Assembly (NCBI RefSeq): GCF_022532105.1
Contig: NZ_CP092832.1
Span: 124,001 to 188,000 of the forward strand
Length of the DNA stretch: 64,000 nucleotides
Direction: 5' to 3'
Source of the DNA: Flavobacterium sp. HJ-32-4
GTDB taxonomy: Bacteria; Bacteroidota; Bacteroidia; Flavobacteriales; Flavobacteriaceae
A program made the translations under genes and the position numbers. Below, in pieces: positions 25,146 through 32,102 of this stretch. The notes below the pieces were generated by a model. The model was not told where the DNA came from and did no database searches. It saw only the letters and a program-made list of their open reading frames with translations. The number at the start of each line of letters is the position of its first letter. Position 1 is the first letter of the stretch.

Positions 25146-26099
25146 CTAAAAAATTTCCTTGGCAATCGCCTTGATGTTCTCCGCTTTTCCCATCGAATAG
25201 TAGTGTAAGACTGGAATGCCCGCCTGCACCAATTCACGGCTTTGGGCGATACACCATTCAATCCCCACCTGTTTTACCGCGGCATCGTCCTTTGCCTTCA
25301 CAACCGCCATGATGAGGTCGTCGGGAAGGTCAACCTTGAAGCGGTGTGGAATCAGGTTCAATTGCTTCTTGGTCGCGATAGGCTTCAGTCCGGGAATAAT
25401 CGGTACCGTAATACCCTCGGCGCGGCATTTATCTACAAACTCAAAGAATTTCTGGTTGTCGAAGAACATCTGCGTGATGATGTAATGCGCCCCATTGGCG
25501 ATTTTTTGCTTCAGGAAGTAAATGTCGCTGTCCAGACTCGGTGCCTCCATATGTTTTTCAGGGTAGCCCGCGACGCCGATACAGAAATCGGTTTGGTGGG
25601 TGTTCTGGAGGTCTTCATCAAGGTAAACCCCTTTATTGAGGTTGTCGATCTGGCTTACCAATTCGGATGCATAGGCATGACCTTCGCGTTCGGGCCGGAA
25701 ATAAATCTCACTTTTGATGGCATCTCCGCGCAGGGCGACGACATTCTCGATTCCCAAAAAGTCAATGTCGATGAGAAAGTTCTCGGTGTCTTCCTTCGTA
25801 AACCCACCACAGAGGATGTGCGGAATGGCGTCGACGTGGTATTTGTTCTGGATGGCCGCACAGATACCCACGGTTCCGGGCCGCTTTTTCACGATTTTCT
25901 TTTGAAGCAAACCACTGGGTAGTTCCTTGAACTCGTATTCTTCACGGTGGTAGGTGACATCGATAAAAGGCGGGTTGAATTCCATCAATGGGTCGATGCT
26001 GTCAAAAATTGACTGGATGTTCTGCCCTTTCAATGGCGGTAATATTTCAAAAGAGAAAAGGGTCTTTTCGGCGTTTTGGATATGTTCGGTGACTTTCAT
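25146..26099 (-). CDS. metF: 5,10-methylenetetrahydrofolate reductase
   Basis: A 317-residue FAD enzyme that makes 5-methyltetrahydrofolate, the methyl donor used by MetH. Typical segments are LFSFEILPPLKGQ, PFIDVTYHREE, VVALRGDAIKSE, CIGVAGYPEKHMEAP, YIITQMFFDNQKFFEFV and VPIIPGLKPI. It lies downstream of the two metH parts on the same strand, separated by a four-helix-bundle gene, and is probably controlled by the SAM-I riboswitch. Confidence 0.95.
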   Translation of the reverse strand: MKVTEHIQNAEKTLFSFEILPPLKGQNIQSIFDSIDPLMEFNPPFIDVTYHREEYEFKELPSGLLQKKIVKKRPGTVGICAAIQNKYHVDAIPHILCGGFTKEDTENFLIDIDFLGIENVVALRGDAIKSEIYFRPEREGHAYASELVSQIDNLNKGVYLDEDLQNTHQTDFCIGVAGYPEKHMEAPSLDSDIYFLKQKIANGAHYIITQMFFDNQKFFEFVDKCRAEGITVPIIPGLKPIATKKQLNLIPHRFKVDLPDDLIMAVVKAKDDAAVKQVGIEWCIAQSRELVQAGIPVLHYYSMGKAENIKAIAKEIF

Positions 26100-26595: not shown

Positions 26596-29310
26596 TTACG
26601 CGATATTAGGACCTAACCATCTCAAAGCCTGTTCCGTCGAAATTCCGCGTCGGTTGGCGTAATCGGCAACCTGGTCGTGTTTGATTTTGCCGAGTCCGAA
26701 ATACTTACTTTGCGGATGGGCAAAGTAGTAACCGGAGACGGAAGACGCCGGCCACATCGCCATGCTTTCCGTCAGGCGGACGCCAATCCGGTTTTCCACA
26801 TCGAGCAATTGCCAGATCGTGGGCTTTTCGAGATGGTCCGGACAGGCCGGATAACCTGGTGCAGGCCGGATGCCCTGATAGGCTTCCGAAATCAGGTCTT
26901 GGTTTGTAAGCGATTCATCGGCGGCGTATCCCCAGATTTCTTTGCGGACGCGCTCGTGCAGGTATTCGGCAAACGCTTCTGCGAGACGGTCTCCGAGGGC
27001 TTTTACGAGAATGGAGTTGTAATCATCATGGTCGGCTTCGAACTCTTTGGCCTTCTCATCAACGCCAAAGCCCGTCGTGACGCAAAAACAACCGATATAG
27101 TCCGGCGTGCCTTCCGGCGCAACGAAATCGGCCAACGCCAGGTTGGGCGCACCGGCCGTCTTACGGGATTGCTGCCGCAGGGTCAGAAAACGGGCGCTTT
27201 CGTTTCCGTCTGCATCCCAAATGGCAATATCGTCGTCGTTGACCTGGTTGGCCGGAAAGATGCCTATGATGCCTTTTGCCGACAACCATTGCTCGTCGAG
27301 TATTTTTTGGAGCATGACTTTCGCATCCACAAAAAGCGCGGTAGCCTGCTCGCCCACAACCTCATCCGTTAAGATTGCCGGGTATTTCCCATACAATTCC
27401 CACGACTGGAAAAACGGCGTCCAGTCGATATAAGCGACCAGGTCCGACAAGGCTACTTCGATTTCCTTCACGCCGATGAAATTCGGGCGTACAGGGGCGA
27501 AATCGAGCGCTAACTTGTTTTTCCGGGCTTCCTCCAACGTCAGGAATTCCTTTTCCCGGCCGCGGCTCAGGTAGCCTTCCCGCAATTGGTCGTATTCGGT
27601 TCGCAGCGAGGCTACATAGGCTTCTTTGGTATCGGGTTGCAGCAAACTACTGGCGACCGTCACGGCGCGCGAAGCGTCGTTTACGTGCACGACCGCTCCA
27701 CCGTACTCGGGTGCGATCTTCACGGCGGTGTGGGCACGCGAGGTGGTCGCGCCCCCTATCATGACCGGAATTTTAATGTTGAGGCGATCGAGTTCCCTGG
27801 CGAGGTACACCATCTCGTCGAGTGAAGGCGTGATGAGTCCGGACAACCCGATCACGTCAACACTTTCTCTCACTGCCGTCTCAATGATTTTTTCAGGCGG
27901 CACCATAACCCCCAAATCAATGATTTCGAAGTTATTACATGCTAAAACAACCGATACGATATTTTTACCGATATCGTGCACGTCGCCTTTCACGGTTGCC
28001 ATCAGGATCCGTCCGGCGCCCCTTGTTTCTTCCGTGCCGGTTTTCTGGGCTTCTATAAACGGTAACAGATAGGCTACGGCCTTCTTCATCACCCGGGCCG
28101 ATTTCACGACCTGGGGCAGAAACATCTTCCCGCTTCCGAAAAGGTCGCCCACCACATTCATGCCGTCCATCAGGTGCTGTTCGATCACTTCGATGGGTTT
28201 GGCGACCGAAAGCCGGGCTTCTTCGACATCAATTTCGATGAACTCATCAATACCCTTCACGAGCGAATGCGTGAGCCGTTCGCGTACCGTGCCGTTGCGC
28301 CATTCCTGGGTTTGTTTTTCGACTTGGGCGTTGTTTCCCCTTACCGTTTCGGCGTAGGCCAGCAGTCGTTCGGTAGCATCGTCACGACGGTCCAGCAGCA
28401 CGTCTTCCACATACTCCAGCAGTTCTTTGTCGATTTCGTCATAGATTTCCAACATCTCCGGATTTACGATACCCATGGTCATGCCGTGGCGAATCGCGTG
28501 GTAGAGGAAGGCTGAGTGCATCGCTTCCCGCACACGGTCATTGCCGCGGAAGGAAAAGGATACGTTACTGACCCCGCCACTCACATGGGCGTAGGGCAGG
28601 TTCTTCCGTATCCATTGGGTGGCGCGGAAGAAGTCGAGGGCGTTGCGGCGGTGTTCGTCCATACCCGTCGCCACAGGGAAGATATTGGGGTCGAAGATGA
28701 TATCTTCCGGCGGAAAACCAACGGTTCCGACCAAAAGGTCATACGATCGTTTGCAGATTTCGATGCGTCGTTCGAAGGTGTCGGCCTGGCCCGCTTCGTC
28801 GAAGGCCATCACGATCACCGCGGCGCCATATCGACGGATTTTGCGGGCGTGGTCGAGGAAAGCCGCTTCGCCTTCCTTCAGTGAAATCGAATTGACGACC
28901 CCTTTTCCCTGGATGACTTTCAGTCCGGCTTCGATGATTTCCCATTTCGAGCTGTCGATCATGACCGGCACCCGTGCGATATCCGGCTCGGCCGCAATCA
29001 GGTTAAGGAAACGGGTCATGGCCTGCACGCCATCGAGCATCCCCTCGTCCATATTGACATCAATGATCTGCGCGCCACCTTCTACCTGGGCCCGTGCGAT
29101 GTCGAGTGCTTCCTCATAGTTCTCTTCCCGGATAAGACGCAGAAACTTACGGGATCCGGTGACATTGGTGCGTTCGCCTACGTTGACGAAGTTCGTTTCC
29201 GGCGTAACGATCAGCGGCTCGAGGCCGGATAGCGTCAGGTAACGCGGAAGCGCAGTAGTGGCACTGTCGGTGAAGTCGGAGGCGTTCGTAGGGCTGTAGG
29301 GCGTGTTCAT
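26596..29310 (-). CDS. metH: Methionine synthase, folate/cobalamin/activation part
   Basis: A 904-residue part of cobalamin-dependent methionine synthase: methyltetrahydrofolate-binding domain ([16 protein letters not shown]), B12 cap, B12-binding domain with GDVHDIGKN (His445 as the lower cobalt ligand) and a C-terminal SAM-binding reactivation domain ([13 protein letters not shown]). The homocysteine-binding part is a separate gene directly upstream (three-base gap). This two-gene arrangement is common in Flavobacteria. Both lie behind a SAM-I riboswitch. Confidence 0.94.
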
Positions 29311-29313
29311 GGC

Positions 29314-30309
29314 TTATATCGTTACGGCTTCGGGACGTTTTCTGGGTTCAAATTCAGCAGCCACCGAGGCAATCAGGCGAATGTGTTCGGGCGTCGTGCC
29401 GCAACAGCCGCCTATTATATTGACAAGATTTTCATTTAGGTATTCCCGAATCAATGCCTGCATTTCCTCAGGTGTCTGGTCATACTGCCCGAAAGCATTG
29501 GGCAATCCGGCGTTCGGATGCGCGGAAATGTTCAGTGACGTCCGGAGTCCGAGTCGCTTCAGGTACGGCTTGAGTTGGTCGGCTCCCAAAGCACAATTGA
29601 ATCCGACGCTGAGCAGCGGAATATGTGAGATAGAGATGAGGAACGCTTCGACCGTCTGGCCTGAGAGCGTGCGACCCGACGCATCGGTGATGGTACCCGA
29701 CACCATAACCGGAATATCGAGGTGACGCGCTTCCTTCACTTCTTCGATGGCGAAAAGAGCGGCTTTGGCGTTTAGGGTATCGAAAATCGTCTCAACGAGA
29801 AGCAGATCAACACCACCGTCGATAAGGGCTTCGACCTGTTCTTTGTAGGCGATGCGGAGTTCATCGAAGGTGACCGCGCGGAATCCGGGATCGTTGACAT
29901 CGGGCGACATGCTTGCGGTGCGGTTGGTCGGACCTATCGATCCGGCAACAAAACGCGGCCGATCGGTGAACTCATCGGCCACGGCGCGTGCGATTCGGGC
30001 TGATTCATAGTTCAGTTCACACACGAGGCTTTCCAGATGGTAGTCGGCCATTCCGATGGTCGTGCCCGAAAACGTATTGGTTTCCACAATATCGGCGCCG
30101 GCCTCGAAATACGCCCGGTGCACCGATTTCACTGCTTCGGGTTGGGTGATCGAGAGCAAATCGTTGTTGCCTTTAAGGGGATGCGGGAAATCACGGAACC
30201 GCTCACCGCGAAAATCCGCCTCTTCGAATCGGTGGCGTTGCAACATCGTCCCCATGGCCCCGTCTAAGACGAGGATGCGTTTTTCTAATTCTTTTCGGAT
30301 ATCAGCCAT
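29314..30309 (-). CDS. Homocysteine S-methyltransferase part of methionine synthase
   Basis: A 331-residue barrel domain equal to the N-terminal module of MetH. It has [23 protein letters not shown] and the zinc-binding cysteines in GFNCALG and GGCCGTT (Cys302 and Cys303). It supplies activated homocysteine to the cobalamin part encoded next door. First gene after the SAM-I riboswitch. Confidence 0.93.
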
Positions 30310-30417
30310 CTTTCAATCAATAGTACCAATGAAATGTCCAGCACCACCGCGTCCCGTGTTTCGGGCGGGGCGTTCTGCTTGTAAAGGTTATCATGAAAGA
30401 GAGGGAATAATCCCGGG

Positions 30418-30518
30418 TTATCTTTCCCCATCAACGATTAGGGTAGAATGCAGCACCTTCTGCGGGAGCAGGGTTGCTAAGGCGTCACCGGGTCTAGTCC
30501 CTCGGCCTTTCGTGATAA
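30418..30518 (-). ncRNA. SAM-I (S-box) riboswitch upstream of metH
   Basis: Read on the minus strand, the sequence shows the SAM-I landmarks in order: P1 start TTATC, AAAGGCCGAGGGA, a GACCCGGTGACGCC arm, GCAACC, GGTGCT with a matching ATTC strand, and the closing GGAAAGATAA. It ends about 110 bases before the homocysteine methyltransferase start. No clear terminator with a T-run follows, so control may act on translation or through a different alternative structure. Confidence 0.9.
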
Positions 30519-30606
30519 CAAACACTAAATATATGAACGCTGCAAAGGTCGGCAATGGGTTTGGATTTCGCAAACAAATCGTCGCAAACGATTGAGAAAG
30601 TAGACG

Positions 30607-30696
30607 GTGGTCAGTAGCCAGTAGTCTGTAGGGGTCGACCCGACCACAGACTACCAACCACTGACTACCAACTACTGACAACTGACTACTAACAAC
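30607..30696. repeat. Imperfect inverted repeat merging into heptamer repeats
   Basis: 30607-30638 is an imperfect inverted copy of about 30639-30669 (shared words GTCAGT and GTAGTCTGT). From 30661 the sequence runs in units of seven (CTGACTA, CCAACTA, CTGACAA, CTGACTA, CTAACAA) up to the metK promoter. Confidence 0.7.
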
Positions 30697-30728
30697 TTTT
30701 GCACTTCCGAACTTTTCCCCTATCTTTG
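30697..30728 (+). promoter_or_regulatory. metK promoter
   Basis: A TTTTG element (30697-30701) and TATCTTTG (30721-30728) with 19 bases between TTG and TAT: a full match to the Bacteroidota promoter consensus. Transcription should begin just before the SAM-II aptamer. Confidence 0.75.
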
Positions 30729-30740
30729 CAACCGAAAATC

Positions 30741-30800
30741 CCGGGAGGAAAAATTTGCCTGATTGCAACCTCGCTAAAAAATGCTAAAGCAGTGATCCTC
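30741..30800 (+). ncRNA. SAM-II-type riboswitch upstream of metK
   Basis: P1 is GAGG (30745-30748) with CCTC (30769-30772). The loop ATTTGCCTGATTGCAA is followed by CGCTAAAAAATGCTAAAGC, the SAM-II signature (ATTTG, TTGCA, TAAAAA, GCTAAAG). It sits at the very 5' end of the metK message, as expected for a SAM-dependent control of SAM synthetase. A Rfam SAM-II or SAM-II long-loop scan was not possible here. Confidence 0.8.
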
Positions 30801-30851
30801 TTTAGCCCCGCGACGTCTTCACGAATCTCCTCCCGCCATAAAAAAATAACT

Positions 30852-32102
30852 ATGGCCTATCTTTTTACGTCGGAATCTGTCAGTGAAGGACATCCCGACA
30901 AAGTTGCCGACCAGATTTCGGACGCGCTCATCGATCATTTCCTCGCCTTCGACCCCGAGTCGAAAGTAGCCTGCGAAACGCTTGTCACCACCGGACAGGT
31001 CATCCTGGCGGGCGAAGTGAAATCGAACACTTACCTTGACGTACAACAAATCGCACGTGATGTCATCCGTAAGATCGGATACACGAAAAGCGAATATATG
31101 TTCGAAGCCAACTCGTGTGGCATCCTGTCGGCCATCCACGAACAATCGGCGGATATCAACCAGGGCGTTGACCGTGCCAATAAAGAAGAGCAAGGCGCCG
31201 GCGACCAGGGCATGATGTTCGGATACGCCACCAATGAAACGGCCGACTATATGCCATTGGCGCTCAACCTATCGCACAAGTTGCTGCAGGAATTGGCAGA
31301 ACTGCGTCGCGAGAACAAAGAGATTACCTACCTCCGCCCGGACGCCAAGTCACAGGTAACATTAGAATACGACGACAACAACAAACCGGTACGGATCGAC
31401 GCGATCGTGATCTCTACCCAACACGACGACTTCGACCAGGAAGCCGCGATGTTGGCCAAGATCAAAAAAGATATTATCGAAATCCTCATTCCGCGCATCA
31501 TCGCGAAGAATCCGGAATACGCACACTTGTTTAACGACGCCATCCACTACCACATCAATCCTACAGGGAAATTTGTGATTGGCGGGCCTCACGGCGATAC
31601 CGGACTCACGGGCCGTAAGATCATCGTGGATACCTACGGTGGAAAAGGCGCACACGGAGGCGGGGCTTTCTCAGGAAAAGATCCGTCGAAAGTAGACCGT
31701 TCCGCTGCCTACGCTACCCGTCACATCGCGAAAAACCTCGTGGCTGCCGGTATAGCAGATGAAATCCTCGTGCAGGTTTCCTACGCAATCGGCGTAGCCA
31801 AACCGATGGGTATTTATATTAACACATACGGAACGGCAAAAGTCGGACTGAGTGACGGTGAAATCGCGAAGAAAGTAGAAGCGCTGTTTGATATGCGCCC
31901 GTACTTCATCGAGCAACGCCTGAAGCTGCGTAACCCGATTTATTCAGAAACGGCGGCATACGGTCACATGGGCCGCACACCGGAAACCGTCACTAAGAAA
32001 TTCCGTTCGCCCGATGGTTCTGAGAAAGCCGTAACAGTCGAACTGTTTACATGGGAAAAACTCGACTATGTTGACGCTGTGAAAAGCGCTTTCGGACTCT
32101 AA
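30852..32102 (+). CDS. metK: S-adenosylmethionine synthetase
   Basis: A 416-residue enzyme making SAM from methionine and ATP. It begins [21 protein letters not shown] and contains the family hexapeptide-like [29 protein letters not shown] and [16 protein letters not shown]. The start at 30852 is set by the standard N-terminus; an ORF upstream covers the riboswitch and is not coding. SAM made here is the signal for the riboswitches on both sides. Confidence 0.97.

Follow-up and report, generated by a model that had tools for sequence, protein, structure and literature searches.

Aptamers of two SAM riboswitch classes on the divergent leaders of metH and metK in Flavobacterium sp. HJ-32-4

Why should two unrelated RNA folds for one metabolite lie back to back between the genes that make methionine and the gene that makes SAM? 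The question is raised by a 64,000-nucleotide stretch of the Flavobacterium sp. HJ-32-4 genome, which was analysed whole and is referred to here as the window. When the window was compared with Rfam 15 by cmscan at gathering thresholds, three matches were obtained, including one to RF00162 (SAM-I) and one to RF01726 (SAM-II), and NCBIfam models identified metK, metH1, metH2 and metF around them. The main features of the locus are as follows.

25146..26099, minus strand: metF, methylenetetrahydrofolate reductase (TIGR00676)
26596..29310, minus strand: metH2, rest of methionine synthase, 904 aa (TIGR02082 positions 319-1181)
29314..30309, minus strand: metH1, N-terminal part of methionine synthase, 331 aa (TIGR02082 positions 1-322)
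30415..30521, minus strand: SAM-I aptamer (RF00162) of the metH leader (cmscan; aligned with 30 other SAM-I sequences)
30543..30577, minus strand: promoter-like sequence of the metH leader, TTG ... GACCTTTG (pattern match; departs from TAnnTTTG)
30699..30728, plus strand: promoter-like sequence of the metK leader, TTG-N19-TATCTTTG (pattern match)
30739..30797, plus strand: SAM-II aptamer of the long-loop type (RF01726) in the metK leader (cmscan; aligned with 18 other SAM-II sequences)
30852..32102, plus strand: metK, methionine adenosyltransferase, 416 aa (TIGR01034, 519.5 bits)

A preliminary description of this DNA had placed a SAM-I aptamer on the minus strand before metH and metF and a SAM-II-type aptamer on the plus strand 5' of metK, and the covariance models recovered both, at 30521-30415 and 30739-30797, within three bases of the coordinates it gave. 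The RF00162 match, at 69.7 bits (cut-off 44.4; E 3.1e-14), spans model positions 1-108 of 108 and lies in the leader 5' of metH1-metH2-metF. The RF01726 match scored 60.8 bits against a cut-off of 44 (E 3.1e-9) and spans positions 1-60 of 60, and the window shares all 38 columns that are invariant in an alignment of 19 sequences, itself included. The spacing of 220 bases that had been proposed came out at 217 bp, whereas the accession given for SAM-II with long loops, RF01826, had to be replaced by RF01726; RF01826 is SAM-V. The central claim of that description, namely that a single intergenic region holds two unrelated folds for SAM, one for each divergent gene, agrees with both Rfam matches and with the gene identities, which supports the view that methionine synthesis and SAM synthesis may each read SAM through a separate RNA.

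The AUG codons lie at 30309 (minus) for metH1 and at 30852 (plus) for metK. The promoter consensus of Bacteroidota, TAnnTTTG, was used for both leaders, and a sigma-70-like match was also listed in the metH leader (30555-30528, minus). With a promoter-like sequence just 5' of each aptamer, the two leaders appear to be separate, divergent and non-overlapping. A single shared RNA or a tandem arrangement on one transcript was ruled out, because the aptamers are on opposite strands, head-to-head, and have separate promoter-like sequences. Methionine synthase is split into two ORFs (26596-30309, minus), a homocysteine-methyltransferase part and the remainder, and its parts likewise gave separate tblastn matches at loci L245 and L246 of the same genus. 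Between metH2 and metF lies a gene for a four-helix-bundle protein (TIGR02436; 26132-26593, minus), which looks like an insertion in the HJ-32-4 genome because the metH2-metF gap is below 100 bp in L245 and L246. The metK frame continues upstream without a stop codon through all of the SAM-II aptamer and as far as a TTG at 30699 (30699-32102, plus), probably by chance. Elsewhere the window carries a Flavo-1 RNA (RF01705; 44485-44560, minus, 67.5 bits), which belongs to an RNA family of Bacteroidota.

We examined what each aptamer could do to its gene by means of duplex tests and folds, in which the bound state was modelled with the aptamer omitted and folding was pseudoknot-free for both leaders. 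The metH leader contains three elements that bear on this.

30507..30519, minus strand: 5' strand of the SAM-I aptamer, GUUAUCACGAAAG, with which the anti-aptamer strand can pair (sequence; free-state minimum-energy fold)
30387..30399, minus strand: anti-aptamer strand CUUUCAUGAUAAC, complementary at 12 of 13 positions to 30519-30507 (duplex test, folds)
30309..30315, minus strand: UGAAAGA, whose last base is the A of the metH1 AUG (covered by 30400-30394 in the bound-proxy fold)

Complementarity between the aptamer 5' strand and a downstream strand is conserved among SAM-I leaders: in 59 of the 78 leaders collected (19 were excluded because the ORF was unclear, because of their length or, in one case, as a duplicate), the duplex averaged -14.05 kcal/mol against -7.81 for shuffled sequences, with p<=0.05 in 40 of the 59 and p 0.025 in the window. 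Compared with strands swapped between loci, p<=0.05 was reached in only 5 of 59, an advantage smaller than that for SAM-II and small in both classes because the aptamers hardly vary. According to the folds, the start of the CUUUCAUGAUAAC strand can pair alternatively with 30315-30309, and in the bound-proxy fold the freed anti-aptamer strand pairs with UGAAAGA at the AUG. The start region of the window then has an accessibility of 0.349, against 0.42-0.52 in six shuffled controls, and across 60 SAM-I leaders (a set that counts one locus twice, as L054 and L159) its unpaired fraction is 0.395, compared with 0.473 after shuffling of the leader (p 4.8e-6). A simple duplex test of start pairing gave p 0.30 in the window and p<=0.05 in only 13 of 59 leaders, and the freed post-aptamer segment of metH folds with a z of only -1.37. 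Free-state start regions of SAM-I leaders are no more open than shuffled controls (0.468 vs 0.500), and 43 of the 60 shuffled controls likewise open up in the free state. Excerpts of PMC6847099 describe that F. johnsoniae makes no use of Shine-Dalgarno sequences and that initiation there depends on start-region structure and upstream adenines, which would make covering the bases before the metH AUG a sensible OFF state. It is plausible, judging from these models, that re-pairing of the anti-aptamer strand with the pre-AUG bases acts as a translational OFF switch for metH that needs no Shine-Dalgarno sequence.

The metK leader has a corresponding set of strands.

30742..30749, plus strand: 5' strand of the SAM-II aptamer, CGGGAGGA (sequence; seven bases paired in the free-state fold)
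30783..30789, plus strand: GCUAAAG, 3' strand of the SAM-II pseudoknot (sequence; conserved in the aligned SAM-II set)
30800..30806, plus strand: CUUUAGC, complementary to 30783-30789, which could block the pseudoknot (duplex test; free-state fold)
30828..30835, plus strand: anti-aptamer strand UCCUCCCG, complementary to 30742-30749 (duplex test; leader fold)

The anti-aptamer duplex of the window (-19.8 kcal/mol) was equalled by none of 40 shuffles and by 2 of 40 swapped strands, and the free metK leader folds into an anti-aptamer hairpin (z -3.33) as stable as which none of 200 shuffles was. Here too the complementarity is conserved: over 145 SAM-II leaders the duplex averaged -15.98 kcal/mol against -11.15 when shuffled (p<=0.05 in 91), with a small advantage over strands of other loci (-14.39 when swapped; p<=0.05 in 13 of 145). 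When motifs were counted, GTCAAAT stood downstream of 54 of the 94 aptamers with GATTTG[AG]C, where 0.86 would be expected, and of none of the 51 others, and GCAAT was found in 29 of those 51 (3.66 expected) as well as in 14 of the 94. One variable pair of the anti-aptamer helix covaries among 83 anchored loci, being A-T in 35, G-C in 19, A-C in 4 and G-T in 4 (neither state in the remaining 21), although kinship among the loci inflates both the Fisher p of 1.2e-8 and the total for the flanking pairs, 281 against 265 +/- 3.8 in permutations. Eight path-disjoint pairs on the metK tree comprised three concordant, two partly concordant, three unchanged and no discordant cases. The predicted anti-aptamer fold of the metK leader is well supported. 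The anti-pseudoknot pairing of CUUUAGC was matched by none of 40 shuffles in the window; as a family rule an anti-pseudoknot hairpin is weak, with p<=0.05 in only 26 of 145 leaders, a test blunted by mis-assignment of the pseudoknot strand in some long-loop leaders (e.g., L235).

Ligand-dependent access to the start, as in a SAM-II platform that sequesters a Shine-Dalgarno sequence, was not seen for metK. The start is 0.599 unpaired in both modelled states (0.599 vs 0.599), and covering of the start region as the metK output in HJ-32-4 was not supported. Among the 145 SAM-II leaders the start-pairing test gave p<=0.05 in 15, and start accessibility in the bound state does not differ from that of shuffled controls (p 0.28); the difference in accessibility between free and bound states is 0.030, against -0.009 in shuffled controls (p 7e-6). 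A strand of the GTTGCTTT type follows SAM-II directly in L005, L006, L008, L009, L012, L024 and L162, with two alternative partners, the pseudoknot strand or the bases just before the metK AUG; this pairing was scored in L005, where none of 30 shuffles was as good, and was judged by eye in the other six loci.

We consider it quite probable that two independent cis-acting SAM riboswitches of different class control the divergent transcripts, SAM-I the operon metH1-metH2-metF and SAM-II metK, and that each leader is a two-state anti-aptamer switch. In the absence of SAM, the 5' strand of each aptamer would be captured by the downstream strand of its own leader, as in the predicted minimum-energy fold of both leaders. 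Binding of SAM would hold the 5' strand within the aptamer and free the anti-aptamer strand. The metH strand, once released, is predicted to base-pair with UGAAAGA at the AUG, which would hinder initiation. The metK strand would be largely unstructured when freed, and the candidate routes to lower expression are translation, Rho-type termination and mRNA decay. From family membership we infer SAM binding, the direction of regulation and the set points, and we likewise infer the OFF direction and a translational output. The conserved anti-aptamer strands lead to specific predictions about the effect of mutations, in a genus that is amenable to experiment.

Is the use of two classes peculiar to this genome? 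Searches of the HJ-32-4 genome found two SAM-I aptamers (150 of 268 initial candidates scored) and one SAM-II aptamer (150 of 1079 scored), and with so few copies a chance proximity is very unlikely. By eye, its second SAM-I aptamer precedes a frame resembling a PLP-dependent Cys/Met enzyme. Of 41 genomes of the genus, 39 had SAM-II and 34 had SAM-I. A sample of the family (199 genomes from 198 genera, about one genome per genus) had SAM-II in 187 and SAM-I in 157 genomes, both classes in 151, and SAM-I in 6 of the 12 genomes lacking SAM-II. Across a phylum sample of 296, SAM-II occurred in 45 and SAM-I in 247, including 42 of the 45 with SAM-II; these family and phylum searches used stricter filters, at which weak matches are lost. 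Both classes in one genome is the usual state in the family, which departs from the statement of a 2007 survey, in the excerpts available, that no single species had both SAM-I and SAM-II (PMC2258182).

The two classes are divided by gene. The family loci examined number 130, in sets of 30 and 100 drawn from the better-scoring SAM-II matches listed rather than from all 187 genomes. In 129 of them SAM-II lies before metK (111 assigned by pattern and 18 by reading), including one in which the metK frame is interrupted (L013). The exception, L019 in G004, has SAM-II before a metY-like gene, and its genome lacks a SAM-I match. SAM-II also precedes metK in at least 33 of 80 named metK loci, a lower bound from a strict core pattern. 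SAM-I, sought with a model built here, was present at 35 of 100 loci from the family and, outside that set, at 13 of 81, window included, and never preceded metK in the 47 readable first frames of these 48 loci (L068 is cut off). The first frames behind SAM-I look like metY, metX, metB or metH, mostly by eye and several of them partial; metH was checked by tblastn (window, L195, L090) and one metY-type beginning by Pfam. We propose tentatively, at somewhat less than even confidence, that the lineage splits the task, with SAM-II on the SAM-making gene and SAM-I on methionine-making genes, that both platforms work without Shine-Dalgarno sequences through the strand complementary to the aptamer 5' strand, and that lineages without SAM-I put SAM-II on methionine genes. 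The near-strict division by gene is a natural experiment on why two unrelated folds serve one metabolite.

Small-genome relatives without a SAM-I match (L251, L252, L254, L255) carry an extra SAM-II that precedes a metY-like gene or stands 0.5-0.6 kb upstream of a DUF6580 gene or metH1. For three second SAM-II copies, in G004, G052 and G081, all genomes without a SAM-I match, the distance to the first sizeable frame downstream is 499-602 nt; these copies are outside the count of 130. In L254 and L255 that frame encodes a small membrane protein, which in L254 matches DUF6580, and in L252 it is metH1, preceded by a similar small frame (by eye). The DUF6580 protein might serve as a transporter in methionine or cobalamin metabolism.

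Several other readings were weighed against that of two independent switches. One or both aptamers could be decayed relics that no longer bind SAM, and the SAM-II loop does read GCCTG where aligned relatives have GACTG, GTCTG or similar; yet we judge this very improbable, given two full-length matches well over threshold and intact complementary downstream strands in both leaders. More serious, and still unlikely in our estimate, is that the metK riboswitch acts on transcription, such that SAM frees a C-rich, unstructured strand for Rho loading or for decay and the free-state hairpin hides it. This reading would fit the window, where the post-aptamer segment is nearly unstructured once freed, start accessibility does not change and no intrinsic terminator was found within 30280-30920, which also removed such a terminator as a candidate output; some proteobacterial SAM-II riboswitches use termination, according to excerpts of PMC9373788 and PMC2258182. 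Against it, an excess of C over G in the anti-aptamer strand is expected anyway because the aptamer strand is purine-rich, and in some other clades (L005, L105, L212 and L225) the post-aptamer strand pairs right before the metK AUG, which points to translation there.

The switches could also be real and their adjacency without regulatory meaning, a consequence of clustered methionine genes that each keep their own leader and of an inherited spacer and orientation, and we lean toward this reading. A head-to-head arrangement in which under 500 bp separate the metK AUG and SAM-I occurs at only 12 of 100 family loci; the distance is about 800 bp at 2 more and 1.8-2.4 kb at 6. SAM-I follows metK on the same strand at 15 loci, with a gap of 76-81 bp at 12 of these, and at 65 loci the roughly 3 kb on each side contain no SAM-I. 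The set of 80 named loci includes 4 head-to-head cases (L090, L102, L107, L113) closer than 500 bp. The distance also varies within the genus, as does the partner gene: the nearest pairs are 152 bp to about 19 kb (18.8 kb) apart, four of them, the window, L244, L245 and L246, at less than 220 bp, and the genes are metH in L245 and L246 but metX-like in L244 and L248. In addition, the spacer between the two promoters of the window (30597-30699) contains ACTGACTAC-type units repeated both in inverted and in tandem order; the pattern recurs in the genome about 144 times, and a reversed control gave 3 matches (up to 3 mismatches, overlaps counted). On the other side, of the 34 genus genomes with both classes, 5 have them on different contigs and 29 on one, and the nearest pair is head-to-head in all 29, although common descent may explain this constancy. 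The division of classes by gene is independent of adjacency.

Both aptamer families were already known, and what goes beyond the literature consulted is the division of the classes by gene, the recurring head-to-head placement and, for both classes, a putative anti-aptamer platform without Shine-Dalgarno sequences. Within the excerpts of open-licence literature consulted, neither a SAM-I/SAM-II pair placed head-to-head nor an expression platform for RF01726 is described, and we found no account of riboswitch action in bacteria without Shine-Dalgarno sequences. The long-loop SAM-II family (RF01726; Weinberg et al. 2010, PMC2864571) is tabled there for Bacteroidetes and marine sequences, and the window matches it over its full length; here it stands 5' of metK with an anti-aptamer strand, a feature that the available excerpts of that paper do not describe. 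Two SAM aptamer classes also lie close together in the tandems of SAM-II with SAM-V (PMC9481103) and with SAM-I/IV (PMC2704228), but those, as far as the excerpts tell, sit on one transcript, whereas the pair described here belongs to two divergent transcripts with different genes. The metH leader resembles the S box (SAM-I, RF00162) in its full-length covariance-model match before a methionine-synthesis operon and differs from it in that no Shine-Dalgarno or terminator platform was found; instead, the downstream strand is predicted to cover either the aptamer 5' strand or the pre-AUG bases. SAM-sensing leaders of metK are known with other folds, one of which is the SMK box, different from SAM-II. 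The SAM/SAH RNA on metK in Rhodobacterales, in the excerpts of PMC2864571, is likewise a SAM-sensing metK leader of another fold. What sets the present locus apart from these metK leaders is that its metK leader is paired with a second SAM class on the methionine genes.
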